This document shows positions 15,401-38,362 of a DNA stretch of 49,052 nucleotides, in pieces. Position numbers and translations under genes: made by a program. Under the pieces are notes generated by a model, which did no database searches, was not told where the DNA came from, and was given only the letters and a program-made list of their open reading frames with translations. Origin of the DNA: a virus; the IMG/VR virus record IMGVR_UViG_3300017725_000009, positions 1-49,052 of that record; one strand, 5' to 3'. Numbering within the stretch: position 1 is the first letter of the stretch; every line of letters begins with the position of its first letter.

Positions 15401-18400
15401 TCTTTGCATCTGTCTGGAATATCCAGGAGAAATTGTAAAGTGCAATGCACCTTCCAAATTACTTGCTATACCAGTACCATTAGAATCAGCTTGAGCTGTA
15501 GTTAAAGAAACACCAGCACGGAGACCAAGGTAACTACCTCTTTGTCTAAATCCTCTTTGATTAAACTGACTGATTGATAATCTATTTGGGGCAAATTGTG
15601 CAGCAGTTAGAGGACTAATATATTCATAAAGACTTGTATCATTTGTATTTTTACCATGGATGTTAAATGTCTGTTGATCATTTGCACCGACAGTAGATTG
15701 GGTGGTTCTAAATGTTCCAGAGATAAATCTATCTCCTTCTTTGTTTGTTGATGTATTTGTTCCTTTATCACCCTGTGGATCACCAACGGTAACAACAAAG
15801 TTATTCCAATTACTGGTACTTTGGTCTTGTGAAATATTCCTATATGGAATAGTTACTGTTTGACCAATCGATAGTTTTTCAAAATCAGCATTAATATTTT
15901 CAGCGGATGAAGTAATACTAACAACAGCGGTCTGATCAGTCAATACTCCAGTTGGAGTTGTATAACAAATACCTGCATCAACTTCTGTAATATCTGATGG
16001 ACTTTCTGCAGCAAATGGTGCAGAAAGAGCAGTTGAATCACCAGCAGAAGAGAATCGCTTCAAGCCATAACAAGTAACATCAACTGGGTCAGAGAGTCTA
16101 AGTTCAGTTGGAATAATTGCTTCAGAAGCAACAGCATCATCAGTTGAGTTGTTTGGATCAAGACCTTCCCAGTCACGGATGTAATGTGGCCAGTACTTAG
16201 TCATACTTCTACTAAGTCTGATTTCGTATCCTTTATTATCACCAGATGAACCACCTTTAGAGAAATCACATGTTTCTCGTTTGCCAATCACAACTCTACC
16301 AGATGTTGGCCAGTAATCTAAGATATTGTCATAATCGAATAGATCAAATCTAGTATTTTGTGGATAAGTAGGAACTTGGTCCCCATCTTCCAACTCAACT
16401 ACAATATCTGCTCTAATGTCAGTTATATTATCAGAGTTTACATATCTGTAAACACCGATATATGATTTATTGTTAGCTAAATCACTTCTAGCAATCTTAT
16501 AGTATAGTCCACCATATAGAATGTAACTACCTGGTTTGAAGATTGATTTTGCTCTATTGATTTGTTGTTTTAGATTTTTTGCACTGTTTCCACTCTCAAT
16601 GGAATTAAGGATAAAGCAATTTTTGGGTAGCATTACTTTATATTCACCTGGACTGAAGATAGTGAAATCTTCATCTGAATAGTTTGACCTTACTGTAAGT
16701 TGGAAAGTAGATAAATCAGTATTACTTCCTGATTGTCTTAGTCTTAACTGTTGACCAGTTTGATGTCCAACACCAGGATCAGTGATGTAAAGACTTGTTA
16801 GTCTATTACTTGAATCAGTTGTAATTACAGCACTACCTTTAGTTGTTCCAGATGGATCACTAACATTAACAAGATCAAGAACTGTAGATGTAGTAAAGGA
16901 ACTACTAAATACTGCATCTTCATTTGATACAGAATAGTTTGCTGGTTCCGAATAATTTGTAGTTTCCGAAGTTTCTGCGACAATTAATTTTGCAGTTCTA
17001 TTTTGAGTAACTTTTTGATATCTGGAAGTTACTGTAGAAACATAATTATATCTTCTAGCATTTAAATAGTCGGTATTAACATTAATGTTTGTACCTGCAG
17101 CGTTAGATAGTGAAGTAAATGCATTTGATCGGTCATATGAGACGTTAACAAAAACATATGCACCAGATTCACTTTGTGTTATAGTACCAGAATTACTAAT
17201 ATTATAGGTATTACCAATATTGAGTCCAGATACATTAGCATAAGAAGTTTCAATATTGTCAGACTTAACAAGTCTAGTTGCATTAGAACCAAAGAAAATA
17301 TTTGCTGGAACATCTAAACCAGCTGCATTATTCGCAACAAAGAATCCAAGACTTCTTCTTGGTAGTGAAATATTTGATCCAGAACCAGTTACTGTATATG
17401 TAGTAACTGTTGAATTACTATCATTCCACCTTAGGTATACAGCAGAAGCTTTATCAGCATCCTGAACAGCATGGTTTGCACCAATTGCAATATATTCTGA
17501 TTGCACACCAGCACTATGTGGATAATCATATACGATTGTATACGGTGTTTGATATCTTTCAAATAGCGCAACTTTAGTTAAGAGATCGCCAGAAGAGATT
17601 GCAGATTCACCAGACCATGGAATAACAGAATTAGGTGACTTATTAAATCTTCTAATTGCTTGTTTTGTTCTCAGTGGGAATGTTCTTGCATCTCCGTCAG
17701 ACAATGTACCATATGGATCTTTACCTGGTTCTAAGTAAATATTAGATTCTGGGTTAAATTCAGATAACTGTCTAAATTCTTCATCATCACCAGAAGTTGT
17801 AATAGCAAATGCTGGTCTAGTTCCACCAATTTGTTTGAAACTATTTTGATCTTCCATCTGGAACATCTCAATAGAGTGACCAGCAACAAAAGCGTTTGCT
17901 GCTGCAGCACGGCCGCCGGTTGTTCCAATACCAGTCCAATCTAGAGATAGATTTCCTCTAAATCTAGTTCCATTAAGTGTTAGTTGAGCACCTCTACACT
18001 TAATCAATCCACCACGATAACCACCACCAAATGTATTTGCTCTTGAGTCAGCAACTGATTGAGCACCAATTGTAACTCCGGTTAGATTTAATTGGAAATC
18101 GGAACCAGGAATAGCATCAACGGCAAGTAATGTACTCTGATAATTACCATTTACTGGCATACCAGCAAGTGGAACTCTTCTTCTGAATGATCTATATGCT
18201 CTAGGCCAGGAATTAAAGAGTCTCTTACCAGTAGCAGTTAAAGGATCGTTATCACCGAAGGAATCAGTACCTACAGATTCCATATATGGAGAACCATCAG
18301 AAACTGAATCGTTTGTTGGATCAACTCTAGCACCAGCAAGTAGATTTGTCTTCGCAACCATCAAGAAATCTGAAGAACTTAGATTGTTAAGACCACTACT

Positions 18401-21400
18401 CGTACTTACAGTGCGACCTGATGGAGATAGAACATATCCACGACCATCAATAACCTCAAATCTATATTCACCATTCAATACGTCTGATGCAGTAGGAGAT
18501 CCACTAGACCAATAGGTTTTAATAGAATTAATAGCACCTGTTGATGAATTGATTGAAGCATAGAATCTCCAACTCTTAGTACCTGCAGTGATAGCAGCTG
18601 CGTTGATTGGATACATAACTACTCTCAATCTGCTATTATACCTTCTGGTATTTGCCAATGCAGTGTTAGATGCTAATTGAGTAGCAATCTTAGTTTCAAT
18701 TGTACCATCAACATAATCATTAGCAAAAGTGATAGTTGTAGGTACATATCCTCTTCCTAGAGCACCTGCATTCTTAATTGATTGTTGGGTGTAAGATCCA
18801 AACAGACTGAGAATATCTTTGTGAATTCCAGCGTTTTCGATGTAGTTAACTACACTTTCATTTTCTGGATTAGATGATCCAGAACCAGAAAGTACATCAG
18901 ATGAACCAGCAAAATCTTCCGGAGCAATATCAAGATAGATATATCTATTATCGGGAATACCACGAATTCTTTGATAAGAAGCTGTACGCTTACTGAATGC
19001 GAGTAAGTTATCTTCTACAGATGCTCTTTCTCTACCATCAGTACCACTGGTATATGAATTGGTTCCCTTAAGTTGAATAAGTTGAGTTGGACTTTGACCA
19101 AATCCGCCAGATCCAAATGGATATGATTGAATACCTGAATCATATATAGTATTTGGATTTCTATCAATTACCAATAGAATATTAGAACCTTCTTTACCAT
19201 TCAAGATACCATAGATTTCTGGAATATCAAATTTAGAAATTTCATCTCCAAAAACGTTGAATTTAGTAAATGATAGAACACCACCAACTGGTATTACAAC
19301 TGTATTTGGAATAAAGTCAGATAGGGTTAGGAGATAACCACCATTAGCAACAGATGTTGCAATAGAAGTTACTCTAAAACCATTTAATTGATCAACGCCA
19401 TTAACGTCTCTCCAAACTACTCTATCACCGACTGAAACATCTTCAAAATTATCAACAACTAATGTATTAGTAGATGTACCATTACCAGTTACGGCTGTAA
19501 CAACTCTCTTGAGAATTGGTCCTTGATATCCACCCTCATGCATAATACCTTTTGGAAGATATCTTCTTCTTTCTTCTTGTCCCCAGTTAAGAGTTAATGT
19601 AGTGTATTCTGCACCATCTTCATTTTCAAATACAATTTTTCTGAGGTTTCCGGTCCAGGAACCTGGATTTAAATCTTCAACAGAGTTTGTATATGAACTA
19701 GAATTTCCATTAGTTTGAGCTGAAGCAGTTTGATAAACAGAAACTAGTATTTCAAGTCTTTCCTGCGAACTGCCGTCAAAATCTAAACTAGTTGAAGGTA
19801 AATGTCTCCTGACACTAATTACCTTAGTTGACATAGTGAGATTAGAAACATCAGCAGAATCAGAATCAATGACAACTTTATCTGATGCATTCGTCAACCA
19901 GTACATTGTAGTACCAGGAATAATATATTTTCTCATTCTATCAAATTTTCTTCTATTATCAGCAGAACTAGCAAAACGAGATGCATCAATAGAGATTGAG
20001 TAATATCTACAATCAGCAAAACTTGCAGATTTTAATTCACCGTATGTAACTTCATTTAAGTTACTTTCAATAATATCACCACTATTAACAACAGGATATG
20101 CAATAGCTGAATGACCAGATTCACCAGTATTAGTTGAAGCTTTAACCATCAACTCAACTGCACCGTTTAAACCAGATGTACTAATTGTATTACCAAGTGG
20201 TCTACCAGAAACATCGTTACCGGTAACTGTAGTCTTAATAATATCTCTCTTCGTAAAATATGCATTTCTAACTAATCTTCTAGCATTCTGAGTTTTAGTA
20301 TCAGTACTAAAGATAGAATCTGGAATTTCATTTTTAGTGATTGATTCGTTAACACCAATAACGTGGACATTATTGAGTGACACTGAACCATTTGCAGATA
20401 GTCCCCCAGATACACCAGAGTAGATTGCATCATTACCTACACCATATTGAGCACTAAATCCTAATGTACGATATAAGTAAACACTATCACCTCTCTTTAC
20501 AGTATCCTCTAGATATCCACCCATTCTTCCTGCAGAAGTTCTAGTTTGTTCTTTACCAGCATATATTGATGAAGTTGCAACTCCAGTACCATTAATTTTT
20601 AATGAACATGGGAATTTAGTACCATCCAACTTGTAATATCCTGGTTTCATTAACAGTTCTAGTTCATCACTAGAATTAAATCCAGAATTTTCTGCCCACT
20701 GTCTACACTGAGAGAAGGAGAATAAAGGACTAAATCTCTTAACTTCATTTCTTTCCTGAATGTTAACACCAAGTGCTTTTGAACTATATGGGTTTGGTAG
20801 TCTTTGATCGAAGTAATCTTCATCAAGATCAATAGCAAGAGGTAGTTTTTTCTCAGGAACTCTATAAAGAATAGCATCCTCAATATTAACTTCCTCAACA
20901 ACACCTTTAGTAGGATCTAGAGGTGGAATGAATGGTGATTCAGACGCCCATCTGTCAGCATCAAATGCCAGTGTATCTGTACCAGTAAAGAATACGTTTA
21001 CAGAATCTATACCTGGATATCCATTATTGTAAGTGGTTGTATAATTATGTACTTTACCTGCCTCGTTAGTACCAGCGCCGTAATTGTCTACTAATTTAAA
21101 CGTTCCGACAGTACCAGCATAACCTGATTTGTAGTACTTATAAGTTGCAATGTAATATGTACCATTTTTTGCGTATTCTCTTAGAGAGATACAACCTCTA
21201 TCTGGCCACTGATCATATTCTGCTGATGTAGCGATAGTGACTTTAAGATCTTGATATTCAGAAGAATTATCTTTATTAATGTCTTGATGTGAACTTGCAT
21301 CAAAACTAGTTTGTAGTTTTGCTTTAAGGTACTTAACATCACTTTCTGTTGCATTTACACCAAATGCACCATCAGCTGTAATTGGTGGGAAGTTTCTGAT

Positions 21401-24400
21401 AATAGAAGTATGTGTTCCATCACCAAGATAACTCTTAAGGTAATCAATTATTCCTAAACCATTTTGATTTCTAGAAAGAACAATTTTATTGGTTGTATAA
21501 TCAACAGATTCATATGATAGAGGAATGGTTACTGCAGTATTAAAGTATACGTTATTACCACCACTTACATAGTAATCTTGAATTGCAATACCAGTCATGT
21601 TGAACTGGACATCAATCTTACCGAATGAAGCAATACCGGCGGTTTCTGCCATCTGCAATTCAATTGCATCAGTACCTGAAACTGTTACACCGTTTACAGC
21701 AGTATTACTAAATGTTAGACCTTCATACCTAAAGAATCTATTTGTACCAGATACTTGTGTTGCATAACCAGACAATGCTGATTGTAGATATGGTTGAATA
21801 TAAACTCTGTTGTTGTCAAGTGTAACAGCTTGAGCAGAAATAAGTTGTCTCTTAACTCTCCAAGCATCTAGGTACTTAGGAGATACATATAGTTTGTCGT
21901 TGGTGTCAGTTGAGATGAAACCTGTCTTCTCTGGTTTAGCACCCTTAACGAAACCATATGCACTAGTATTACCTTCTGGGAAGTTAGCAGCATTGTTAAT
22001 TTCTGCTCTATCAATAAAGAGTCTTTCACCAATAATCAAATTACTGATGTTTGCTTTATCACTAACAGTTAGTTTAGCAATGTTGAAGAAGTTTGCGAGA
22101 TCCTTAAGTGCGGATTGTGCGGAAGCACTTCTACCTGCGGATGCAGTTACGTTAATAACAGCGTTAGAAATTCTGTTCTCAATATTTTCAATATCCAGGT
22201 AGTTAGACTCAGAAGACTTACGAAGTTTTGGAACGTTTAATGTAACAGTACTTGTACCACCAGCTTGAATTACCTGGTTACCAATGTAGAAGTCACCTGC
22301 AGAGTTAGTACCAGAAGAAGCGATAAATCCACCAGCGTTTTCATAACCCTGTGCAATAAACTGTTCGTAAATCTTAAGAACTCTTGTCTGTAGATTTGGG
22401 AAACCAGTTGAATAGTTACCAGAACCAAGACCGATGTATTCCCAGGTGTGTGAAGAAGCACGTAGGATAGATGGTCTGTATAGGTTTAGTTTTGGAGCAA
22501 ACTTAAGTCCGTCTTGGTGCGTTCCAGTTCCATTAGTATTAGAACTTGCAAGTAATGCATTTGCATTAATGGATGTACCAGTTACACCTTCTGCATTAGG
22601 AGAAGAAACAACAATTCTTCTGTCAAAAATTTCTGCATTGATACCATAAGTATTGTAATTAGAAACTTTGCTAACATCTACTTCTCTACGTCCAGCTGGA
22701 GTTATAACTCCATTGGATAATACTTCTGGTTGTCCAAGTCTCCAGTTTGAATTATACAAGTTTAGAGCAGATGAAGATGAGTGCTCATCACCTTTTTCGC
22801 CCGAATTTAGTATTCTACTATCCCATGTGTTAACTGGAGCAATGGAAATTCTACTTGCTGAGATGGTGGTCGTTGATCCATTGTCAACTACATATCTGAG
22901 GTCTAATGATTGAACCAATCTGTGAATAGCTTCAGCTGTCATTGATGTCAATGACGGAATATCCTTGAATGGACATTCAGCAGTAGCAATAGTACCAGAA
23001 GAAGTTTTATATCTCTTGAAGTTAGGAACTGTAATATCTTTAATTCTATTTCCAACTTCAATAGGTTCTACAAGAACTCTACTATCTGATTGTGGTGGGT
23101 TCCAAATTTTTCTAATGTCATAAGTTGGACCCTCTTCGTTAACTGATGGATATAGGTAATTTACATTACCAATAAGTTGAGTTTCTTTGTCGAAAAGATT
23201 AACTGCTTCAATTGTTGTACAACTGAATGAGTTAGTTGCAGTAATACCAATAGGTCTTCTCTTAATAATAGAAACAACATTGTCTCCAGCACCAGCTTGA
23301 CCTGTTGGAATACGATAATCAACAAATTCATTAACGTCTGCTCTAATTACAGTTAGATAATAGATACCATCTCTACTATTCTTTTCCCAGGATTGAACTT
23401 CTTCAACATCCCAAATCATGAATCGATAATCACTATATGGAACATCTGCTTCACCATTACCTGGTCTAGTTCCTTTTATAATAAATCTCTTTTCGGGTGG
23501 TTTTGGATTTACATTATTTGCAAGATACTTAGGAATAGTATATTCTACTTTCCATAGAAGATCACCAGGTTGTGATGTTCTAGTATCAGAGAACTTCTTG
23601 ACAATCAAACTAGATGGGAAACCAGTCTTATATTTTAGAAGATTCTTAGTTACTTGTTGTAGTTCGGTTGTAGTAATACCAGTATTTGGATCAATTGCTG
23701 TCACAAATTCAAATGATTTTTCTTCATTGGAATCAAAAATAAAGTCGTTTACAAAAGCATCAGATCCGTTTGAAACGTTATACGTATGATCTACTTTTAG
23801 ATATACACATTTTTCAGCGGGATCCCAAAAATATCCAATTCTTTCTGAGTTTCTAGTAGCTTGAATTGTGGAACCACCAATAGTCTTTGTAGGTAAATCT
23901 GAAGTAGATGTTGTTGTAGTAAGTCTTATATTAAATGTTCTATCACTTTCACCACCAGTAGATTCTAATGGTAGGTTAATAATTTTATTAGCATCTGGTG
24001 TTATACCATCTTTATCGTAGAAATCTCTGAATAAAGCAAATTGACCTGAAGTACCATACGTCAAGAAACGTTTTGTTACAACTGTACCATCAGATTTTAC
24101 ACTTTCAACTACCAATTCTGGAATATCATCATCTGTTGTAGCACCAGTTTCTAGATAAAGTCTAAATCCACCAGATTCAGTATAACCATCTCTCAAACTC
24201 TTGAGTTCGTCAGATAATTCTTCACCAACAGCACCGATATAACTCCATGTGTTAGTTGCAGAAATATTATAGAAAGTTACATCAGTAACATTATCAGAAA
24301 TACCTCTAGGTGGAACAAGTGCAGTAATTCTACCTTGAGAAGAAGGTGTGAATGATCTGAACTGAGATCCTTTTGCACGGAGTGAAACTTGACCAAAGTT

Positions 24401-26638
24401 AGAGTTAGAGTTCGTGATGGACATATCACCACCAGATACTGCTAAGAACTGGTCAGCGTAACCAACTGCGAAAACAGAAACGACCTGAATAAATCCACCG
24501 TTGGATGCCTTAATGTGGAAGTGTCTACAATCTGTCTTATATTGAGCGTCTGGATCTGCAAAGATTGGAGGTTGCGCTGTGCTTGGGTCATCATCATTAT
24601 ATGTTGTATTATCTCTATCACCTTCAAGATCTTTTGGTGAAATAAATACGTCTCTATCTTTTTGAAGTGAGATGCCCGTAAACTGTGCAACAACCATGGA
24701 TTTAAAGCTGTTCTCAGCAACTTTATAACCATCAGTGTGCATACCACATAAACCAAAAACTGAACGTAGCGAACAGTTAAAGATATATGGAGAACAGGAG
24801 TTTACAGTATCAATAGTGTAGTTCTTACTTCTATCACCAACAATCTGGAATTCCTCGGTTCTTACATCGGAAACATCTCCAGATCTACCTTGCCATGCAT
24901 CAATCTTCGCATAATACTGATTTAGTTCACCATCAGTATTTCTTTGATCAGCATATGTAAATGCTACAACTCTATGGTGAGAATATCCTGTGTAATTAGA
25001 TGCTTTGGTGAATGTTGGAATACCGCTGGAATTGAAACTTACACTATCATAAGGTGCATCCTCAGCATCCTTAAATGTCATCTGCCAGAAGTAACAACCA
25101 CCAGTTACCTTAAAGATAGAAGTCTGATTGTATACACCTTGAGTTTTTCTAAGTACAAGATTTTGTGTAGAACCTCCAACTAGAGGAATACTGGTAACAG
25201 TATGACTGGTATAGGTATCTGGATTTGCAATGATACCATCAGCAATTGCACCAAGAATTGCAACAGCATTTACGACACTATTACAATCACCATTACTTAC
25301 AAAACCATCTCCAGGTGTAAATGTAACTCGGTTAATGGTCTTACCAGAAGAAATTTCAGTAAAGTATGTTGCACCATCATTATAACTTTTGACGATATCT
25401 CTCATCGCAGAAGTTACTGTAGCAAAAGCTAATCTAGTATCTGCAACTTCACCTGAGATATCAGAATCACCGGCATTTAAAAATTCTTTTCTATAACCAT
25501 TTCCATCAACATAAGCTTCAGCGTTAACGAATGTATGTTCATTACCACCTGTACGTAAATCTTTAACAATTGCATCGATAAAATAACCAATATCACGACG
25601 ACATGCAGCTTTTTCAATATTGTTAAGAGAAGACCAACCACCAGCAGCGCCGCTGGCAGTCATTTTAAGTTCTGCCTGTTCAATGAGATAACCACGGTTT
25701 CTCTCAACCATGACAGCACCATCAAATGCTACCTGAAGGAGTGAGAAACTATCTGCAGTAATACTTCCTTCAACTGAGAAGGGTGCGGGAACGTACTTTG
25801 GTCTAATAACAGTCTTTCTTAAGTCATAACCAACAATAGAGGTTCCTCTTGGTACGATAACACCACCGTTTCTTGGGTTGAATCTCCAAGATGAACCAGT
25901 ACCCAAATTACCAGCAGCTGCTGCAGTTCCATCAGTTGGATCTTCATCAACACTTTGAGTTAGTGGGTTTGTGAAGATATCTAGTCCTGGTCTATTGTCA
26001 ATCTCATATTGACCAGGAAGCACCATAACTGTAAATGCTTCAAACTTGTCATTATTAAGAGTTGCTGTACCAGTTCCAGTTGCAGTTCCGGTAGCAATAA
26101 AGGATACACCAGCAGTATTTGATGAAGCACCAACACTCGTAAAATCAGTGTTTCCTGCAGTTGTGATAATATAAGTTTTTCCAGGTTCTAGATTTGCACC
26201 ACTAATTGCTGCTGGATCTGTTTTAAAACTTCTTTTAGCGGCTTCTAGAAGTGCTCTCTCAATAGTTTTAAATGGTTTGTTTAAATTACCACCATCATTG
26301 TCTTCAGCATCTGTTGAGTTTAGATCAGCTTGGTTGACATAAAGAGTAATATTTCTTGCATTAGCAAAATCTGTATTTGTACCACCAATAACAGTTCCGA
26401 CTGAATCGGATGAATCTCTATAAGTTTTTAATTTTCCATCTGCAGCAATTGTAAATCTCTTTACACCACCAGTGGCGAATGAAATTTCATCAGCACCAGA
26501 CTGGTACATGCCAGTATCATCATCCCCCTCAAAACTGATAGCAGGTAAATTACCTGACATCTGTGGTTCATTCTGTGCATTAAATTTAATACTAATTCCA
26601 GGTGCAATTCCACCTGAAGTTACTCTTGTTAGAGTCAT
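12425..26638 (-). CDS. Giant 4737-residue virion fibre-like protein
   Basis: A single uninterrupted 14.2-kb frame. It starts MTLTRVTSGGIAPGISIKF behind a GGAG nine bases upstream. Residues ~38-58 hold a fibre repeat (GMYQSGADEISFATGG). Residues ~100-300 look like a pectate-lyase-type parallel beta-helix (NKPFKTIERALLEAAKRS, later GGVIVPRGTSIVGYDLRKT) with an inserted TYIITTAGNTDFTSVG module. The rest is beta-rich, Ser/Thr/Asn/Gly-rich sequence with few cysteines and no transmembrane segment or catalytic motif that I recognise. T4-like cyanophages often carry one such giant structural gene. A long tail fibre or whisker is the natural reading. Two late promoter boxes precede it, and tRNA-Leu lies immediately upstream. 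Confidence 0.85.
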   Translation of the reverse strand: MTLTRVTSGGIAPGISIKFNAQNEPQMSGNLPAISFEGDDDTGMYQSGADEISFATGGVKRFTIAADGKLKTYRDSSDSVGTVIGGTNTDFANARNITLYVNQADLNSTDAEDNDGGNLNKPFKTIERALLEAAKRSFKTDPAAISGANLEPGKTYIITTAGNTDFTSVGASSNTAGVSFIATGTATGTGTATLNNDKFEAFTVMVLPGQYEIDNRPGLDIFTNPLTQSVDEDPTDGTAAAAGNLGTGSSWRFNPRNGGVIVPRGTSIVGYDLRKTVIRPKYVPAPFSVEGSITADSFSLLQVAFDGAVMVERNRGYLIEQAELKMTASGAAGGWSSLNNIEKAACRRDIGYFIDAIVKDLRTGGNEHTFVNAEAYVDGNGYRKEFLNAGDSDISGEVADTRLAFATVTSAMRDIVKSYNDGATYFTEISSGKTINRVTFTPGDGFVSNGDCNSVVNAVAILGAIADGIIANPDTYTSHTVTSIPLVGGSTQNLVLRKTQGVYNQTSIFKVTGGCYFWQMTFKDAEDAPYDSVSFNSSGIPTFTKASNYTGYSHHRVVAFTYADQRNTDGELNQYYAKIDAWQGRSGDVSDVRTEEFQIVGDRSKNYTIDTVNSCSPYIFNCSLRSVFGLCGMHTDGYKVAENSFKSMVVAQFTGISLQKDRDVFISPKDLEGDRDNTTYNDDDPSTAQPPIFADPDAQYKTDCRHFHIKASNGGFIQVVSVFAVGYADQFLAVSGGDMSITNSNSNFGQVSLRAKGSQFRSFTPSSQGRITALVPPRGISDNVTDVTFYNISATNTWSYIGAVGEELSDELKSLRDGYTESGGFRLYLETGATTDDDIPELVVESVKSDGTVVTKRFLTYGTSGQFALFRDFYDKDGITPDANKIINLPLESTGGESDRTFNIRLTTTTSTSDLPTKTIGGSTIQATRNSERIGYFWDPAEKCVYLKVDHTYNVSNGSDAFVNDFIFDSNEEKSFEFVTAIDPNTGITTTELQQVTKNLLKYKTGFPSSLIVKKFSDTRTSQPGDLLWKVEYTIPKYLANNVNPKPPEKRFIIKGTRPGNGEADVPYSDYRFMIWDVEEVQSWEKNSRDGIYYLTVIRADVNEFVDYRIPTGQAGAGDNVVSIIKRRPIGITATNSFSCTTIEAVNLFDKETQLIGNVNYLYPSVNEEGPTYDIRKIWNPPQSDSRVLVEPIEVGNRIKDITVPNFKRYKTSSGTIATAECPFKDIPSLTSMTAEAIHRLVQSLDLRYVVDNGSTTTISASRISIAPVNTWDSRILNSGEKGDEHSSSSALNLYNSNWRLGQPEVLSNGVITPAGRREVDVSKVSNYNTYGINAEIFDRRIVVSSPNAEGVTGTSINANALLASSNTNGTGTHQDGLKFAPKLNLYRPSILRASSHTWEYIGLGSGNYSTGFPNLQTRVLKIYEQFIAQGYENAGGFIASSGTNSAGDFYIGNQVIQAGGTSTVTLNVPKLRKSSESNYLDIENIENRISNAVINVTASAGRSASAQSALKDLANFFNIAKLTVSDKANISNLIIGERLFIDRAEINNAANFPEGNTSAYGFVKGAKPEKTGFISTDTNDKLYVSPKYLDAWRVKRQLISAQAVTLDNNRVYIQPYLQSALSGYATQVSGTNRFFRYEGLTFSNTAVNGVTVSGTDAIELQMAETAGIASFGKIDVQFNMTGIAIQDYYVSGGNNVYFNTAVTIPLSYESVDYTTNKIVLSRNQNGLGIIDYLKSYLGDGTHTSIIRNFPPITADGAFGVNATESDVKYLKAKLQTSFDASSHQDINKDNSSEYQDLKVTIATSAEYDQWPDRGCISLREYAKNGTYYIATYKYYKSGYAGTVGTFKLVDNYGAGTNEAGKVHNYTTTYNNGYPGIDSVNVFFTGTDTLAFDADRWASESPFIPPLDPTKGVVEEVNIEDAILYRVPEKKLPLAIDLDEDYFDQRLPNPYSSKALGVNIQERNEVKRFSPLFSFSQCRQWAENSGFNSSDELELLMKPGYYKLDGTKFPCSLKINGTGVATSSIYAGKEQTRTSAGRMGGYLEDTVKRGDSVYLYRTLGFSAQYGVGNDAIYSGVSGGLSANGSVSLNNVHVIGVNESITKNEIPDSIFSTDTKTQNARRLVRNAYFTKRDIIKTTVTGNDVSGRPLGNTISTSGLNGAVELMVKASTNTGESGHSAIAYPVVNSGDIIESNLNEVTYGELKSASFADCRYYSISIDASRFASSADNRRKFDRMRKYIIPGTTMYWLTNASDKVVIDSDSADVSNLTMSTKVISVRRHLPSTSLDFDGSSQERLEILVSVYQTASAQTNGNSSSYTNSVEDLNPGSWTGNLRKIVFENEDGAEYTTLTLNWGQEERRRYLPKGIMHEGGYQGPILKRVVTAVTGNGTSTNTLVVDNFEDVSVGDRVVWRDVNGVDQLNGFRVTSIATSVANGGYLLTLSDFIPNTVVIPVGGVLSFTKFNVFGDEISKFDIPEIYGILNGKEGSNILLVIDRNPNTIYDSGIQSYPFGSGGFGQSPTQLIQLKGTNSYTSGTDGRERASVEDNLLAFSKRTASYQRIRGIPDNRYIYLDIAPEDFAGSSDVLSGSGSSNPENESVVNYIENAGIHKDILSLFGSYTQQSIKNAGALGRGYVPTTITFANDYVDGTIETKIATQLASNTALANTRRYNSRLRVVMYPINAAAITAGTKSWRFYASINSSTGAINSIKTYWSSGSPTASDVLNGEYRFEVIDGRGYVLSPSGRTVSTSSGLNNLSSSDFLMVAKTNLLAGARVDPTNDSVSDGSPYMESVGTDSFGDNDPLTATGKRLFNSWPRAYRSFRRRVPLAGMPVNGNYQSTLLAVDAIPGSDFQLNLTGVTIGAQSVADSRANTFGGGYRGGLIKCRGAQLTLNGTRFRGNLSLDWTGIGTTGGRAAAANAFVAGHSIEMFQMEDQNSFKQIGGTRPAFAITTSGDDEEFRQLSEFNPESNIYLEPGKDPYGTLSDGDARTFPLRTKQAIRRFNKSPNSVIPWSGESAISSGDLLTKVALFERYQTPYTIVYDYPHSAGVQSEYIAIGANHAVQDADKASAVYLRWNDSNSTVTTYTVTGSGSNISLPRRSLGFFVANNAAGLDVPANIFFGSNATRLVKSDNIETSYANVSGLNIGNTYNISNSGTITQSESGAYVFVNVSYDRSNAFTSLSNAAGTNINVNTDYLNARRYNYVSTVTSRYQKVTQNRTAKLIVAETSETTNYSEPANYSVSNEDAVFSSSFTTSTVLDLVNVSDPSGTTKGSAVITTDSSNRLTSLYITDPGVGHQTGQQLRLRQSGSNTDLSTFQLTVRSNYSDEDFTIFSPGEYKVMLPKNCFILNSIESGNSAKNLKQQINRAKSIFKPGSYILYGGLYYKIARSDLANNKSYIGVYRYVNSDNITDIRADIVVELEDGDQVPTYPQNTRFDLFDYDNILDYWPTSGRVVIGKRETCDFSKGGSSGDNKGYEIRLSRSMTKYWPHYIRDWEGLDPNNSTDDAVASEAIIPTELRLSDPVDVTCYGLKRFSSAGDSTALSAPFAAESPSDITEVDAGICYTTPTGVLTDQTAVVSITSSAENINADFEKLSIGQTVTIPYRNISQDQSTSNWNNFVVTVGDPQGDKGTNTSTNKEGDRFISGTFRTTQSTVGANDQQTFNIHGKNTNDTSLYEYISPLTAAQFAPNRLSISQFNQRGFRQRGSYLGLRAGVSLTTAQADSNGTGIASNLEGALHFTISPGYSRQMQRISTWGTYTATFEKISTSTDEFEVIMDVTNVADGGIYKGQPIYSNCTTPTLTVTGSAGNWSTSYSAGSYSSSDLIGYVVGMRGDTITSTEGSQGVVEGYEDGLELTGDGGTGKYRVLLSTAYGSGAGPFGELTFNQSSNTKTASATIHGKQDSTDYFPYGSNQGMWWNEPGSGVYRLIFKRIVRDDGTNVVYFRYSNGQGRGLSDVGSSGYSGGTSLNSGNYVLMYYQGYYDNSIKLRLDKPLSTSIPEGTKLRIAPTPNRTNKSNESNFLFKSKIIDMKKVGSGANARIRVYLADPLPRENWQRGVFGSEETLQANTADSPVKTFGMMYVNDGGWTYPKTGGSSFRPGNVNIEKDTKGRYTDKNGTANGAAEIGTHSNEIWLPNRSGRVRAGDILSYSWEDILRVNSRNGIDSYSGQDDWSNAALTSATNTSTVTLGGSNADKLITVLRPGYQLFANNGDEIGTISAIGTGTITLTENAKVAVSGVTNWTYTSTGKVINYTATISEVAAPDSHGYSKCTISAGSNHILHGRMHLKLKDLLATIDEVYVSHRLGNFVNDGPIVKTFIYSDTGVKLSFGEYRMWYENYNNYIRPIDRTRQAMSGRQGWVGNFGLTTTGRRAVGIQLNGASSIQRGRQYNSGMWLTAVPVHAWWETTSYATYMLQSDQSSSIENNYVATPTPIAYDGAGTHKIYALNHTKLTTGSVYSAVNTGNSDIGAGSFDTQHYRLLSTNTKLKYSLQNGTVSATGAVSGGDSARLSEQFAINNVITYKVTHGNDSSGINVGTLNVTDSETFTATSGTKHLIQVGDVIYDGAPSGLTGVNDRYVGIVKTADYSGNGTFTLTQKTANTNFTGSNSNCFILTSRGFITSGTDGANIAGGGLVFSGDSASTVTLTSVGGSSSSPNIIANNTPGFNKYNIRFNIDRRVYNQTTLINTFGNLQSVNGSDNANKVVDVRFGDLAQFASPMINVEVTRFNAKTHVESSISVVGANLHI

Positions 26639-30318: not shown

Positions 30319-31161
30319 CTAGTAATCATCTGCGTTTGATTTGAATACTCTATAAGTTGCTCTATTAAGATCAAGATATATTGATTGGTGACAGAAAGCA
30401 CCTGCTCTCAAGTCATCATAGATGTCAAACACTTTAGGGAAATTAAAATTCATAACTCTATATCTATCTGCCTCTTTATTAGAAACAGCATTCACATTTC
30501 CCTGTGAGTACTTATAAGTTATGTTATTTGAAGGATATGGTTGTTGTTCTAATAATTTATCAATAGATTTGAAGTTATATCCATCAAATGTTTCGTAAAA
30601 AAGAAATCCAATTGAATCTTTTTTATACTCAGGTATAGATCTAATTGACATCCAATTAAAGAAATCAAACACTCTCCAATTAGGAACATACATATCAAAA
30701 GGAAAAACTGTACTGTCTTTTTGTAATTTTTTACCAGAAAAATTACTTTTTTTCAGAACATCTTCAATTACATCTTCAGATTTTTCACCATCAATTCTCT
30801 GACAAATCCTAAAGTTTTCATTTCTAAGTCCTTCAATAGAAACACCATGCATAATATATGTTTGATCTTTTTCAATGATTGTACGTGAATCTACCTTATA
30901 AAGATAATAATTTAAATCATATATTTTATTTCTACTTCCAATTTTTATTTGAATTCTTTCTTGTCCTACTATTGGTAAAGTACTAATTAAATTTTGTCCA
31001 ATATCCTGTATTAATATTTCTACTTGTAGAGCAGAAGACATAACACTTTCAAATAAATTTATTTCCATTACAAGATTTTTTATGTCTATCTTCTGAGTAT
31101 TATAGACACTATAAAGATATACTTCTTCTAAAGTAAAATCACCAGAGAATTGATTTGCCAT
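30319..31161 (-). CDS. 27: gp27-like baseplate hub protein, N-terminal part ending in amber
   Basis: A 280-residue product starting MANQFSGDFTLEEVYLYSVY and ending SNADDY before TAG. The sequence matches the first domains of gp27-like hub proteins: an early beta barrel with IDIKNLVMEINLFESV, a strand-rich IVGQERIQIKI, and a middle with PNWRVFDFFNWMSIRSI. In T4, gp27 trimers form the channel between gp5 and the tail tube. The start overlaps the stop of the lysozyme-domain gene (TAATG). A hub protein lacking its last ~160 residues would not be expected to work, so the amber codon matters. Confidence 0.82.
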   Translation of the reverse strand: MANQFSGDFTLEEVYLYSVYNTQKIDIKNLVMEINLFESVMSSALQVEILIQDIGQNLISTLPIVGQERIQIKIGSRNKIYDLNYYLYKVDSRTIIEKDQTYIMHGVSIEGLRNENFRICQRIDGEKSEDVIEDVLKKSNFSGKKLQKDSTVFPFDMYVPNWRVFDFFNWMSIRSIPEYKKDSIGFLFYETFDGYNFKSIDKLLEQQPYPSNNITYKYSQGNVNAVSNKEADRYRVMNFNFPKVFDIYDDLRAGAFCHQSIYLDLNRATYRVFKSNADDY

Positions 31162-33347
31162 TATAACCTACTAAGGACCTGATTGACAGACTTCTTCTTA
31201 TTATTTAGAGTCAAAGTACTGACTGACAATCCAATACTATTTTCTTGTATGTTGTTTAAAATAATTGGTTGTTCTATTACAGTAGTAGATTTCATTTTTT
31301 CATCAATAGCAAACGTTGCACTTGATTGTGGCATAGATGAATTCTTTATCGGAATTTTTTTCATTTTAGCAGGAGATTTTCTTGGTGCTTGCATTCCATA
31401 CCCATCACCTTGACCAAGACTCTTATTATAAACGGCTTGTAATGTATCAAAACTTTTTACTGGTTGATTATATCTACTCTTACCATTCATCATAGGTAGA
31501 GAAGCCCATACAGGTGCTATCTGTGCAATTTGTTCCCTGTTAATTGGAGCATCAATTTGTGATTGAGACATTCCTGCTTGCCCTTTCATGTAACCAGCAA
31601 TTGCCATTCTATCCTGAACTTCAGGAGTAAATTTAGTTGCTGATGGATCATAACCAGCCTTTACAGCGAACACCTCAGGTTCCATCATCTGATATGCACC
31701 TACAGCAGCAGATGTATAACTTCCATAAGTCGCTTCACCGTTACTAAGTCTTCTTTTTTGTTCCTGGACTACTTCATTAATTGTCATGGATGTTAAGTCC
31801 ATATCAGTTCTACCACCAAACCAAGTGTTATAACCTTCTGTGTGAGATGTTCCTTCGGCAAACCTAATAGTATTCAACAATGCTTTTGCATTTGTTCCTG
31901 CTGGTGGAACCTGTCCAGTATACCCTCCTCCACTTGTTTGTGGATTTGCATCCCCATTACCACTACTCGTTTCGTCATCTGTCTTCGGATCATCTGGGTT
32001 GTGGCCACTACCAAACCATGCATCATACAACCATCCACCTGCTTCACTACCAAGCCATCCACCGATGATAGCTCCTATTGGACCACCAAGCATACCAACA
32101 GCACCAAGCAATCCTCCACCTATTGCTTTAAATGCCGACCTAGCAGGAGATTGTTTGAATAAAAATACATCCATAAAAAACTGTAGAAGAGCACCGATAA
32201 AAGGAACTCTACTTATAATTTTAGTGAATCCTCTACCGACTGCACCAAGTAGTTTGAATAAACTTTTACCACCAACTTTAATAATAAATCTTCTTAATGG
32301 TTTGAAGAGTTTACTACTAAACACTTTACCCAAAGTGCTGTTCAAAGATTTCTGAACAAAATTTTGGATCATCTTAATTGGTTTTCGTAAAATTTTATTT
32401 ACAAATTTACCAAACTTACTAAAAATTTTAAATACTTTTTTGAGATCTTTAATTATTTTAAATGGATTTTTTAACCATCTGAGTACAAAGAAACCTCCTA
32501 TTAATTTAAGAGCTCCACCAAACCTTTCCCCAATACTGCTATCTGGTCCGAGAAGTTGTGATAATCCTGTCATAGCATTATCAATAAACCCACCCACAAA
32601 GAAATCAATAAATTTAAAAGCTTGACCTAAAAATTTAACAATACTTTTTACCTGTTCTCTATTTTTTGGATCTCCAATCCAATTTAAAACTGAAAATGCT
32701 ATAATATCACCAAAGATTCCAAAGATATCACCCAGTGTTTTTGACACTCTACCTTTAATTTTTCTACCAACACCAAATATATCTCTACTAGGAGTTTTTC
32801 TCTCCGTTTTTTTCTTCTTCTTCTTTTCTTTTTCTTTAAGTTTGTCAGTCTTCTTAGATGATTTTTTTTGTTTATTTTTTAACTTAGTTATTCTTTTTAG
32901 AGTCTCTAATAATTTCTTAAGAGCATCTTTAAAATTTTCTTTTGACTCTTCAGATTGTTGAGGCGGTGCATCATCAACGTTAACTCTTGCTTTTTCTACA
33001 GGTTCTTCTAATTCCTGTACGTCTGTTGATAAAGCACTACTAGAAGATACTTCAGAGAAAGGAACAATGGCACCAACACTACCACCTGATCCACCTCCTC
33101 CTGCAGCTTCATCATTTAGTTTATCCATCTCACGTTCTAGATCAGCATATCCTCCTACATCAGACTCTGCTTTTTGTCTTACCTTCTCTGATGCTTTGAC
33201 ACCTGAAATTACATCACTTTTGAATACAGATGGGTCAATCTTACTACCCATCTTCCCCTTTTTAAACAGAGCTTTTCTCTCTGCGGGTGACAGATATTCA
33301 CCTGTCTTTGGATTTATGCCGTGGGCTATTACGTTAATATCTGACAT
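31161..33347 (-). CDS. Tail hub/tape-measure-like protein with lysozyme-type (transglycosylase) domain
   Basis: A 728-residue protein. The N-terminus is charged, with a very Lys-rich stretch at ~145-190. A hydrophobic helical middle (~195-450) contains LNWIGDPKNREQVKS, also found in the 33352-35622 product, and Gly-rich membrane-like segments (GGGLLGAVGMLGGPIGAIIGG). Residues ~486-645 form a lysozyme-like domain of the lambda-R/lytic transglycosylase type (LLNTIRFAEGT with candidate catalytic E498, GYNTWFGG, AVGAYQMM). The role suggested is local peptidoglycan cutting during DNA injection, replacing the lysozyme missing from gp5. It ends at gp27 with a one-base overlap. Whether it is tape measure, hub or both is unresolved. 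Confidence 0.8.
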   Translation of the reverse strand: MSDINVIAHGINPKTGEYLSPAERKALFKKGKMGSKIDPSVFKSDVISGVKASEKVRQKAESDVGGYADLEREMDKLNDEAAGGGGSGGSVGAIVPFSEVSSSSALSTDVQELEEPVEKARVNVDDAPPQQSEESKENFKDALKKLLETLKRITKLKNKQKKSSKKTDKLKEKEKKKKKKTERKTPSRDIFGVGRKIKGRVSKTLGDIFGIFGDIIAFSVLNWIGDPKNREQVKSIVKFLGQAFKFIDFFVGGFIDNAMTGLSQLLGPDSSIGERFGGALKLIGGFFVLRWLKNPFKIIKDLKKVFKIFSKFGKFVNKILRKPIKMIQNFVQKSLNSTLGKVFSSKLFKPLRRFIIKVGGKSLFKLLGAVGRGFTKIISRVPFIGALLQFFMDVFLFKQSPARSAFKAIGGGLLGAVGMLGGPIGAIIGGWLGSEAGGWLYDAWFGSGHNPDDPKTDDETSSGNGDANPQTSGGGYTGQVPPAGTNAKALLNTIRFAEGTSHTEGYNTWFGGRTDMDLTSMTINEVVQEQKRRLSNGEATYGSYTSAAVGAYQMMEPEVFAVKAGYDPSATKFTPEVQDRMAIAGYMKGQAGMSQSQIDAPINREQIAQIAPVWASLPMMNGKSRYNQPVKSFDTLQAVYNKSLGQGDGYGMQAPRKSPAKMKKIPIKNSSMPQSSATFAIDEKMKSTTVIEQPIILNNIQENSIGLSVSTLTLNNKKKSVNQVLSRL

Positions 33348-35623: not shown

Positions 35624-35809
35624 TTAACTCTGTTGGCTCTTTTGACGTTCGTTTTCTTCTTTAATATAATCTACTAACATAGTCACATAAATTTCTCTTT
35701 CCCAAGGAATCATGTTTTCTAATTCAGTTAAACTATATTTGTGGTGTTGCATCATTGCAAAATTAACTTTATAAAAATTCTCAAGACTTTCATGGGATAG
35801 GGCTATGAG
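35624..35809 (-). CDS. gp51-like/chaperone extension expressed by -1 frameshift from gp26
   Basis: A 61-codon frame (LIALSHESLENFYKVNF onward, with SLTELENMIPWEREIYV and a helical Glu/Lys-rich end) that opens in the -1 frame inside the last codons of the gp26-like gene and stops one base before the M23 gene. It has no ATG near its beginning; the only ATGs are the pair at 35755 and 35752, with no clear ribosome-binding site. The heptamer T TTT TTC at 35815-35809 lies exactly where a -1 slip would join the two frames, giving a ~298-residue fusion. T4 has gene 51 at the same place. Internal initiation (35624-35755, 43 residues) is the alternative. Confidence 0.72.
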   Translation of the reverse strand, partial: LIALSHESLENFYKVNFAMMQHHKYSLTELENMIPWEREIYVTMLVDYIKEENERQKSQQS

Positions 35810-36519
35810 AAAAAACTTGATAGTCCCTCAATTACTACATCACTTTTCACTTTAGTATTTGGATTGGTAACAGAAACTGTATGAGATAGTTTCGGCATAG
35901 TCTCAAAGAAATTTTGTACCTTCAAGAATTGTTTAGTATCCATACCCTCCAAGAATTCATTAATTTCTTTCTTGGTAGAATTTGAAGCTTCATATACTTC
36001 TTCACCATCTACAATTTGATGTATACACATAGATGCAATCTCAAAAATATCATCAACTTCAGATACATTATCAGCCATATTATTTTTAATGAATAGATCC
36101 ATACTTGGATACTTCATAACAACTGATACAGTGTCATTCATCTCTAGGATATTTGTATGATCACTTTTTTTATCAACATTAATATCCTCCAAATCAATAT
36201 TTACATCAACTACAGTCTCACCATCATCTGGGCATGTGATTTGTAAATCTACTGTTTCACCAACCGACTTTCCTCTAATGTTCAGAAAGATATATTCAAT
36301 ATCAAATAAAGCAAGATCATCAATTTTAAATTTTGGAGTTTGAATACAGTTGGACAAAATAGTTTTGACTGCATTTGCCATCTGTTTTTCATCTTCAGTT
36401 TCCATAGCAAGTAGAAGAATTTTTTCTTCTTTAACTAAAAAGGGTCTATATTTAATCTTCTTTTTAGTAGATGGGATCTCCAACTCATATGTTGGTGTAG
36501 AAAGTTTTGGTAAAGCCAT
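35803..36519 (-). CDS. 26: gp26-like baseplate hub/tail assembly chaperone
   Basis: A 238-residue product starting MALPKLSTPTYELEIPSTKKK behind AAGGAG five bases upstream. The N-terminal motif IKYRPFLVKEEKILLLAMET and the later DLQITCPDDGE are characteristic of the T4-type gp26 family in cyanophages. T4 gp26 takes part in baseplate hub assembly. A TATAAATA late promoter lies 35 bases ahead. The frame ends ...SSFFS-TAG, and its last Phe codons form the slippery heptamer discussed with the next feature, so two products (238 and ~298 residues) are expected if frameshifting occurs. Placement ahead of a tape-measure-like gene fits the G/GT chaperone layout. Confidence 0.83.
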   Translation of the reverse strand: MALPKLSTPTYELEIPSTKKKIKYRPFLVKEEKILLLAMETEDEKQMANAVKTILSNCIQTPKFKIDDLALFDIEYIFLNIRGKSVGETVDLQITCPDDGETVVDVNIDLEDINVDKKSDHTNILEMNDTVSVVMKYPSMDLFIKNNMADNVSEVDDIFEIASMCIHQIVDGEEVYEASNSTKKEINEFLEGMDTKQFLKVQNFFETMPKLSHTVSVTNPNTKVKSDVVIEGLSSFFS

Positions 36520-36567: not shown

Positions 36568-37425
36568 TTAGCGAATAAGTCCCAACAAAGCATCTAAGAT
36601 ATCTATTCCTTCTCCACCTCCGTTTATAGGATCCCTAAAGTTTGATACAGAGTCACCATTGAATGTTGTAGTTGTATAAGTTTCATACTCAAAAGAAACT
36701 GATAGTTTTGATATAGATGTTTCTTCTCTGTTTAACGGAATTGATGCTATATTTGATGGGAAAGCATTAAATAATTTCACAGCATGTACTGGTATAGCCT
36801 TATAAAATCCAGAGTTCATTAGACTTTTTTTGTCTCTAATATCTGGTATTATATCACGTAAAGAATAAGCTAAAGAATTGTTATTTGGTTCCTCACTATT
36901 TTTCTTACCATTCATATATTTTTCATACTTTATAATTATTATGTCACATGTATAATCATCTCTATATGCTGCTCTAAAATTTTTCTGTGGCGCTGATGAT
37001 CTAAGAATATCTTCAATTGAATTTGGGAAATCTGTAATTTGATTTGAGTAACCATATATCCAATTAGTCCACAGATCAAATATACTTTTGATCCTTGAAT
37101 CAGAATCCATCATAAAAGAAAGTTCCATTTCACTGAACACTGCACCATAAGCATACTTTAAATTTGGGGTGTTAGTAATTCTATAATCACCAGTAGAAAT
37201 TTGAAGTCCAGGAATACTAGCTTCATCAGTATATATTCTAAGTAAATTCTTAGATGGTTGTAAGTCAAACTCGTCATCTCTTGAGAGTTGTCTAACTAGT
37301 TTTGGGTTACCCTCCAGTTCAATAATAACATCATAGAAGTTACTAGCACTGTAACCAGATCTTTTAAATTGTTCTTTAAATGTCGAATAGTTCGACATTG
37401 GCGTTGCGCCAGATATTCTACTCAT
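36568..37425 (-). CDS. Tail-tube-fold baseplate protein, possibly gp54-like
   Basis: A 285-residue protein (MSRISGATPMSNYSTFKEQF). It has the strand pattern of the gp19/gp54 tail-tube fold: NFYDVIIELEG, a central GDYRITNTPNLKYAYG, SEMELSFMMDSDSRI, and late KLSVSFEYETYTTTTF. In T4, gp54 nucleates the tail tube on the baseplate and is 320 residues long. The neighbours (gp4, gp26, gp48) agree with a baseplate-tube junction role. It overlaps the upstream gene by four bases (ATGA). It could instead be another tube-related structural protein; the sequence alone does not settle this. Confidence 0.65.
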   Translation of the reverse strand: MSRISGATPMSNYSTFKEQFKRSGYSASNFYDVIIELEGNPKLVRQLSRDDEFDLQPSKNLLRIYTDEASIPGLQISTGDYRITNTPNLKYAYGAVFSEMELSFMMDSDSRIKSIFDLWTNWIYGYSNQITDFPNSIEDILRSSAPQKNFRAAYRDDYTCDIIIIKYEKYMNGKKNSEEPNNNSLAYSLRDIIPDIRDKKSLMNSGFYKAIPVHAVKLFNAFPSNIASIPLNREETSISKLSVSFEYETYTTTTFNGDSVSNFRDPINGGGEGIDILDALLGLIR

Positions 37426-37928
37426 TGAGAAGTTTCTCCCCAGACTGCTGATTTACTATATTGTTGATACATATTATTCTTTCTAGTAACAAAACTTTCA
37501 ATAGGAAGAAAGATTGATGTTTTATAATCTTCTCTATTTATTTTATAAAGAGGTGTTTCTAGTCCCGCTACAACATAATGGTGATAACATTGTTTAGGAA
37601 ATTTAGCTCTACCATTTTCTAATCCTAGTATTACATTCATCCTAGACCTATGTCTTAGGTAATGTAAGTTAGCACCAAAAAATTTTGTACCTGTACTTAG
37701 AACATAAACGAGTGGAAACTCATCATAGAATTTCAACTTTGCAGCATATGTTGCCTTATATTCAAACATATAAAGTTCACCTGGAGTCGGTATCATAGAC
37801 TCCTCCATCTCAGACATATCTGAATACAGATCACCTGATTGAAATTTCATTCTTACTGCATCACGATACCAAGAATATGATCTCGGTTCATTACCAGCTA
37901 GTTCTTTTATCTCTTGAAAGATACTCAT
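37422..37928 (-). CDS. Conserved T4-like structural or morphogenesis protein
   Basis: A 168-residue protein with the pattern PTPGELYMFEYKATYAAKL, then FYDEFPLVYVLS, then FFGANLHYLRHRSRMN. This 'FxGxNLHYL' block is widespread in T4-like phages, and I recognise the family without being sure of its name or role. It contains no enzyme motif that I can see. It is coupled by ATGA overlaps to gp4 upstream and the tube-fold gene downstream, so the three form one translationally linked unit for head or tail completion. Confidence 0.7.
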   Translation of the reverse strand: MSIFQEIKELAGNEPRSYSWYRDAVRMKFQSGDLYSDMSEMEESMIPTPGELYMFEYKATYAAKLKFYDEFPLVYVLSTGTKFFGANLHYLRHRSRMNVILGLENGRAKFPKQCYHHYVVAGLETPLYKINREDYKTSIFLPIESFVTRKNNMYQQYSKSAVWGETSQ

Positions 37929-38362
37929 ACTTTGAGTTCGTCTTCTGTGATTAACATAAATTTATAATTCCTATCATCGCAAAATTCTTTTGCCGCTGTC
38001 CATTTAGCTTGGTTTTTGGCATACTCAGTAACTTCATAGATATATTTTTTAGTCATCCTCTTTTGAACCTTAGGTTCTCTAGTCTGTTTCTTTGGTTTAA
38101 CTTCAATCAAATACTTCTGAATGTTTCCATTAACATCCTTAACCTTTATATAAAAGTCAACAAAGTATCTATGTATCTTATTGTCAAGTGGTGATCTATA
38201 AGGAATAATAATCTCTTCACTACCCCACTCAAGTATACTAGGATTACCATCACAGTACTTCATGAATTTTAATTCCCATGAAGATCTATAAATAATATTA
38301 CGGTAGTCCCCTCTATACTTGGCAGAATTTTTAGGAATGTATTTTCCCTTCAAAGTGTTCAT
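37925..38362 (-). CDS. 4: gp4-like head completion protein (nuclease fold)
   Basis: A 145-residue protein with the TnsA/PD-(D/E)XK pattern of T4 gp4-type head completion proteins: E30 in YRSSWELKF, D69 in RYFVDFYIK, and E87-x-K89 in YLIEVKP. In T4 this protein acts on packaged heads before tails join. The size is close to T4 gp4. It is the first gene of the minus-strand baseplate cluster, is preceded by a CATAAATA box, and diverges from gp48 with a 32-base gap. Confidence 0.8.
   Translation of the reverse strand: MNTLKGKYIPKNSAKYRGDYRNIIYRSSWELKFMKYCDGNPSILEWGSEEIIIPYRSPLDNKIHRYFVDFYIKVKDVNGNIQKYLIEVKPKKQTREPKVQKRMTKKYIYEVTEYAKNQAKWTAAKEFCDDRNYKFMLITEDELKV

Follow-up and report, generated by a model that had tools for sequence, protein, structure and literature searches.

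Ribosomal -1 frameshifting is associated with slip sites of several kinds. For example, the lambda slip site is G GGA AAG, where the locus described here has T TTT TTC, while the -1 cassette of E. coli dnaX has the slip site A AAA AAG with an SD-like motif about 10 nt upstream. A tail assembly chaperone (TAC) gene generally has the tail tube gene just upstream. Closer to the present case are the T4-like phages. Poly-T -1 signals are known in their TAC-N genes (PMC12846349, citing Vladimirov et al. 2022), and some of these phages have, in place of frameshifting, a short TAC gene and a second, fused long one (PRFect, PMC10885494, citing Vladimirov et al. 2022). The primary source, Vladimirov, Gautam and Davidson 2022 (Virology 566:9-15), is used here as relayed by PMC10885494 and PMC12846349. 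A similar site has been described in the TAC loci of Vandenendeviridae and Andersonviridae (Pseudomonas phage Adele, PMC12846349). By the account of these sources, the chaperone frameshift of T4-like phages was reported in 2022 and is not new in kind; what is added here is a survey of its sequence conservation. A literature search by title found no description of the slip site specifically in cyanophages.

The locus lies in a viral stretch of 49,052 nucleotides (IMG/VR record IMGVR_UViG_3300017725_000009, positions 1 to 49,052), referred to as the window. Its features are as follows.

36568-37425, minus strand: tail tube gene, upstream (PF23849, E 5.6e-13; phrog_45 tail tube, E 1e-29)
36519-35803, minus strand: gp26-like tail assembly chaperone ORF, the short form of 238 aa (PF12322 / phrog_150)
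35825-35829, minus strand: SD-like GAGGG, 9 nt 5' of the slip site, within the codons GAG GGA
35815-35809, minus strand: slip heptamer T TTT TTC, with TTT TTC as zero-frame codons, in phase for -1
35803-35805, minus strand: zero-frame stop TAG, one codon past the slip site
35809-35624, minus strand: -1 frame extension of 61 codons plus stop (TAA), the C-terminal part of the predicted 298-aa long form
35622-33352, minus strand: downstream gene of 756 aa with an M23 peptidase domain (PF01551, E 1.1e-20), in the tape-measure position

A programmed -1 frameshift at T TTT TTC very probably makes the long form of the tail assembly chaperone, to judge from the sequence comparisons below. The locus would then be the TAC of a marine T4-like phage, one gene giving two proteins. 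The majority of ribosomes would terminate at TAG, yielding the 238-aa short form (TAC-N), and a minority would slip back one base on the heptamer and read 61 more codons, yielding the 298-aa TAC-NC. If the pair works as lambda gpG/gpGT does, the tape measure protein, probably the product of the next gene, would be coated by many copies of the short form and few of the long one, and the coating chaperones would recruit tail tube subunits. What the analysis shows is phase, conservation, coding selection and fold; the occurrence of the slip, its rate and the chaperone role are inferred.

The 3' end of the gp26-like ORF reads AGT TTT TTC TCA TAG. Rereading the sequence gave the same coordinates, phase and 61-codon -1 frame as the preliminary description, along with its product sizes of 238 and about 298 residues (computed as 238 and 298) and its placing of the extension stop one base before the M23 gene (stop at 35624, next start at 35622). 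Among the 14,453 codons of the window's main genes there are 70 in-phase X XXY YYZ heptamers. The one at 35815-35809 is the only one that opens a -1 frame of more than 14 codons, and for this reason it is not attributed to chance. The absence of a start codon near the beginning of the -1 frame, also claimed earlier, was borne out: codons 1-18 contain no ATG, GTG or TTG, the earliest start is the ATG at 35755 (codon 19), and no SD-type motif was found 5-16 nt ahead of it. The predicted junction peptide of the window's long form is ...SSFFLIALSHESLENF... and that of P-SSM2 is ...GLQSFFRISMAHEDLESYYK.

The slip site is strictly kept in close relatives. The set examined comprised the window and 80 IMG/VR relatives (81 loci, 53 of them distinct at the junction), with gp26 identities of 55-90%. 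T TTT TTC was found at the same position in all 81, each with a -1 peptide of the type HESLENYYKVNFALMQHHKYSLTELENMIPWEREIY, and the zero-frame stop fell 0 or 1 codon beyond it in all loci examined for start codons. The Phe pair is written TTT TTC in every gene of two sets (49/49 and 52/52). Elsewhere in the 52 genes Phe-Phe pairs are written TTC TTT (32), TTT TTT (14), TTC TTC (3) and TTT TTC (3). In the 49 genes both slip Phe codons are fully conserved at synonymous sites, the third such column being the gene's codon 3. The codon ahead of the pair varies (AGT, TCT, GCT, AAT; Ser, Ala, Asn) and always ends in T, the base that the heptamer needs there.

Sequences around the slip site are also constrained. 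The Glu codon of GAGGG is GAG in 42 of 49 genes, against 368 GAG to 890 GAA elsewhere (about 29% GAG). Downstream, single-sequence folding of 106 nt predicted no stable hairpin 3' of the slip in the window (z -0.58). In 28 cyanophage-type loci (among L025-L082) an 11-12 bp hairpin begins 4-5 nt past T TTT TTC, with arms AGTATGGCTCA/TGAGTCATACT and a variable loop; it encloses the only nearby ATG of the extension. Its 3' arm reads GAG TCA TAC in 28/28, with Tyr elsewhere TAT 118 times vs TAC 28 times. By pair counting in this group the stem pairs hold in 94% of cells and there is no compensatory change, the stem being unchanging; the pattern therefore represents constraint, not covariation. This hairpin was considered as an element of the window and rejected, as it is absent there. 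S-PM2 has a strong hairpin near its slip site that is unrelated to the cyanophage-type stem.

Another fixed element is found in the window's group. At codon 3 of the extension (35798-35803, minus strand, with CTN after it) every one of the 12 sequences tallied, Mosig among them, has GCC, as does Melnitz-3; in the gp26 genes of nine of those relatives GCC makes up 4 of 63 Ala codons. The fixed GCC CTN past the slip points to an RNA-level constraint, perhaps acting together with the upstream GAGGG. A tentative reading, less probable than not in our estimate, is that the chaperone frameshift is a stimulated cassette, with GAGGG and T TTT TTC common to marine T4-like phages and a downstream part that differs by lineage: the hairpin hiding the nearby ATG in cyanophage types, the unrelated hairpin in S-PM2 and the fixed GCC CTN element in the window's group. 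If so, one short-to-long ratio would be set by differing elements, all of which T4 would have exchanged for a second gene. The less expected features are GAGGG and the dnaX-like hairpin of many cyanophage-type relatives.

The slip site is also found in distant phages. The junctions of 18 GenBank phages, with gp26 identity down to about 25%, were read, and 17 have it as T TTT TTC, TTT or TTG. T TTT TTC occurs in P-SSM2, S-PM2, Mosig, Desulfovibrio 7757, Vibrio K571, Vibrio EniLVp02, Aeromonas 65.2, Aeromonas phiWae14, Agrobacterium OLIVR6, Stenotrophomonas BUCT608 and DLP6, and Synechococcus BUCT-ZZ01 and S-B68. HTVC008M, phiM12 and Melnitz-3 have T TTT TTT, and RHph_I34 has T TTT TTG. Conservation of the heptamer and the -1 phase, which the preliminary description had proposed to check, thus extends through 81/81 close and 17/18 distant phages. 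The sole case of the 18 without a slip site is Vibrio phage D528 (L104:2160-2388). There a -1 frame ATG shares bases with the gp26 stop (TAATG) and the gene neighbours are different, an arrangement which suggests that D528 switched to a small gene with its own start. Searches for remote relatives that used the Vibrio and Desulfovibrio proteins singly as queries found nothing.

Selection on the -1 frame can be followed 5' of any start codon. The codons following the slip were compared across 14 loci that lack any start codon ahead of codon 18. Before any start codon, pS was 0.77 and pN 0.16 in the -1 frame; the same stretch gave pS 0.20 and pN 0.32 in the zero frame and pS 0.23 and pN 0.32 in the +1 frame, both of which contain stops. 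Because pS is saturated, no exact dN/dS is given. As judged from these substitution patterns, the -1 frame is under purifying selection ahead of any start codon, and the first codons of the extension are predicted to be translatable only by ribosomes already in that frame.

These results bear on whether the extension is instead a small gene of its own (gp51) that needs no frameshift, its translation starting at an internal ATG or through reinitiation once ribosomes have reached the gp26 stop. The GenBank records of P-SSM2, S-PM2, HTVC008M and Mosig do annotate a separate gene, 33 of the 48 close sequences tested have an ATG 3 codons into the extension, and the stop and ATG overlap as TAATG or TGATG in five distant phages (K571, phiM12, EniLVp02, RHph_I34 and BUCT608). 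However, in the window and 14 relatives a conserved coding stretch, about 18 codons long, has no start codon ahead of it, an SD-type motif 5-16 nt ahead of the first extension ATG is absent in 48/48 sequences, and in the hairpin group that ATG sits inside the predicted stem. A separate gene would also leave the fixed T TTT TTC unexplained, and this explanation is considered quite improbable. In Desulfovibrio 7757, Aeromonas 65.2 and phiWae14 no Met precedes the conserved block of the extension. Short proteins are annotated in GenBank from an internal ATG at L084:1555-1692, L085:1555-1689, L109:2250-2393 and L108:2250-2381; these annotations omit the conserved first part, which would be translatable only via a frameshift.

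Both routes might operate, the frameshift giving the long form and reinitiation a free extension wherever a start adjoins the stop. The stop-start spacing of the cyanophage types (TAAGTATG) and the TAATG/TGATG overlaps are in keeping with this, and reinitiation could add to or replace the product in some phages because an ATG is near or overlaps the stop. This combination is closed to the window, which has no start codon near the stop, and to our knowledge a free extension has no known function; it is thought very improbable. That a sequencing error or a real homopolymer indel split one ORF deserves almost no credence: homopolymers are error-prone, but the identical run and phase recur in 81 contigs, 53 of them with distinct junctions, as well as in 17 GenBank genomes. 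The programmed frameshift is far ahead of these alternatives and is the reading kept in what follows.

The protein families agree with a single product spanning both frames. The gp26-like protein matches PF12322 (Pfam, E 2.4e-73) and phrog_150 (PHROG, E 7.7e-80). For the 61-aa extension the matches are to phrog_634, named 'baseplate hub assembly catalyst' (E 1.1e-29), and to positions 236-276 of phrog_150, the end of that profile, so that phrog_150 covers gp26 plus the extension. The closest match to the extension among the matches listed is from a Pelagibacter phage. By sequence gp26 found no counterpart among solved structures; its AlphaFold model (pLDDT 85.8) was compared with them by fold. 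The best scores were 3fgx (Z 8.1) and the HK97 tail assembly chaperone 2ob9 (Z 7.9), with the third-best at Z 3.0. Both top matches lie within gp26 residues 1-95 only and, with Z near 8, are moderate; the one to 2ob9 covers 84 residues at 3.7 A. Foldseek by itself was weak for this model. The modelled short protein thus resembles the HK97 tail assembly chaperone fold over its first 95 residues. Foldseek with the T4-type gp51 model was uninformative, and the extension of that model has low confidence (pLDDT 53-68). A G/GT-type -1 frameshift, the earlier interpretation, gains support from the kept slip site, the coding -1 frame and this HK97 TAC-like fold.

The gene order is tail tube, tail assembly chaperone and candidate tape measure. 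The 756-aa gene begins one base beyond the extension stop and is a candidate tape measure from its position and weak PHROG matches to tape-measure families. Its description as an M23 tape-measure-like gene stands as to the M23 domain and the position; as to homology, the profile matches are weak and comparison with the P-SSM2 and HTVC008M counterparts gave E 0.007 at best. Past it lies a 728-aa gene (31161-33347, minus strand) with matches to the endolysin families phrog_90 and phrog_1200, and the two may share an internal tail role. Elsewhere in the window, a gp4-like head closure protein (37925-38362, minus strand) matches a TnsA-like endonuclease domain (PF08722, E 1.6e-23), and a single ORF of 4737 codons (12425-26638, minus strand) is unusually long for a phage protein.

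T4 has separate genes 26 and 51, as was noted earlier, though these are not two halves of one protein. Both products match the whole of PF12322 (gp26 E 8.8e-64, gp51 E 3.9e-52), and gp51 runs on into the extension as an in-frame fusion (phrog_150 13-280, phrog_634 2-103). Since it has the whole domain and the extension in one frame, T4 gp51 is the long form as a single ORF, with T4 gp26 as the short form, and since each protein has the whole domain, two paralogous genes replace the slip in T4. The genes lie on opposite strands, and in a family tree gp26 and gp51 fall apart, with long branches and an arbitrary midpoint root. The window extension corresponds to the last part of T4 gp51 only. When the window's gp26 was searched against the 49-kb window, the sole match was itself; such a search could overlook a diverged paralog, and the record is itself a fragment.

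These comparisons indicate that the small gp51 gene ('baseplate hub assembly catalyst') in the annotations of many marine phages does not, for the most part, stand alone: it encodes the C-terminal end of a chaperone reached by frameshifting, and its annotated start is often a wrong internal ATG. The T4 hub proteins gp26 and gp51 would thereby be linked to lambda-type tail assembly chaperones. The phages also offer a natural comparison, one protein ratio being reached via ribosome slippage in some and two genes in T4, and the junction sequence allows a direct search for junction peptides in existing proteomes.

Compared with known systems, the locus shares features with each. Like the Adele-type loci (PMC12846349, as far as described there), its TAC-N gene ends with a conserved poly-T -1 site, and the ORF downstream is of the sort routinely annotated as a separate hypothetical gene; those loci belong to other phage families, and the motif is given there as GTTTTT. 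With dnaX it shares the SD-like motif, here 9 nt upstream, and its cyanophage-type relatives share the downstream hairpin; it differs in that the window has the motif without a predicted hairpin, and in the heptamer T TTT TTC. As in lambda and HK97, the -1 slip would occur close to where the short form ends, here in a gene that follows the tail tube gene and precedes the candidate tape measure gene, and the gp26 N-terminal domain resembles HK97 TAC 2ob9, whereas in sequence gp26 matches no solved structure. With T4 it shares the family (PF12322) and the architecture of a short and a long form; T4 encodes the two forms in two genes, and the window would make both from one gene with a slip site.
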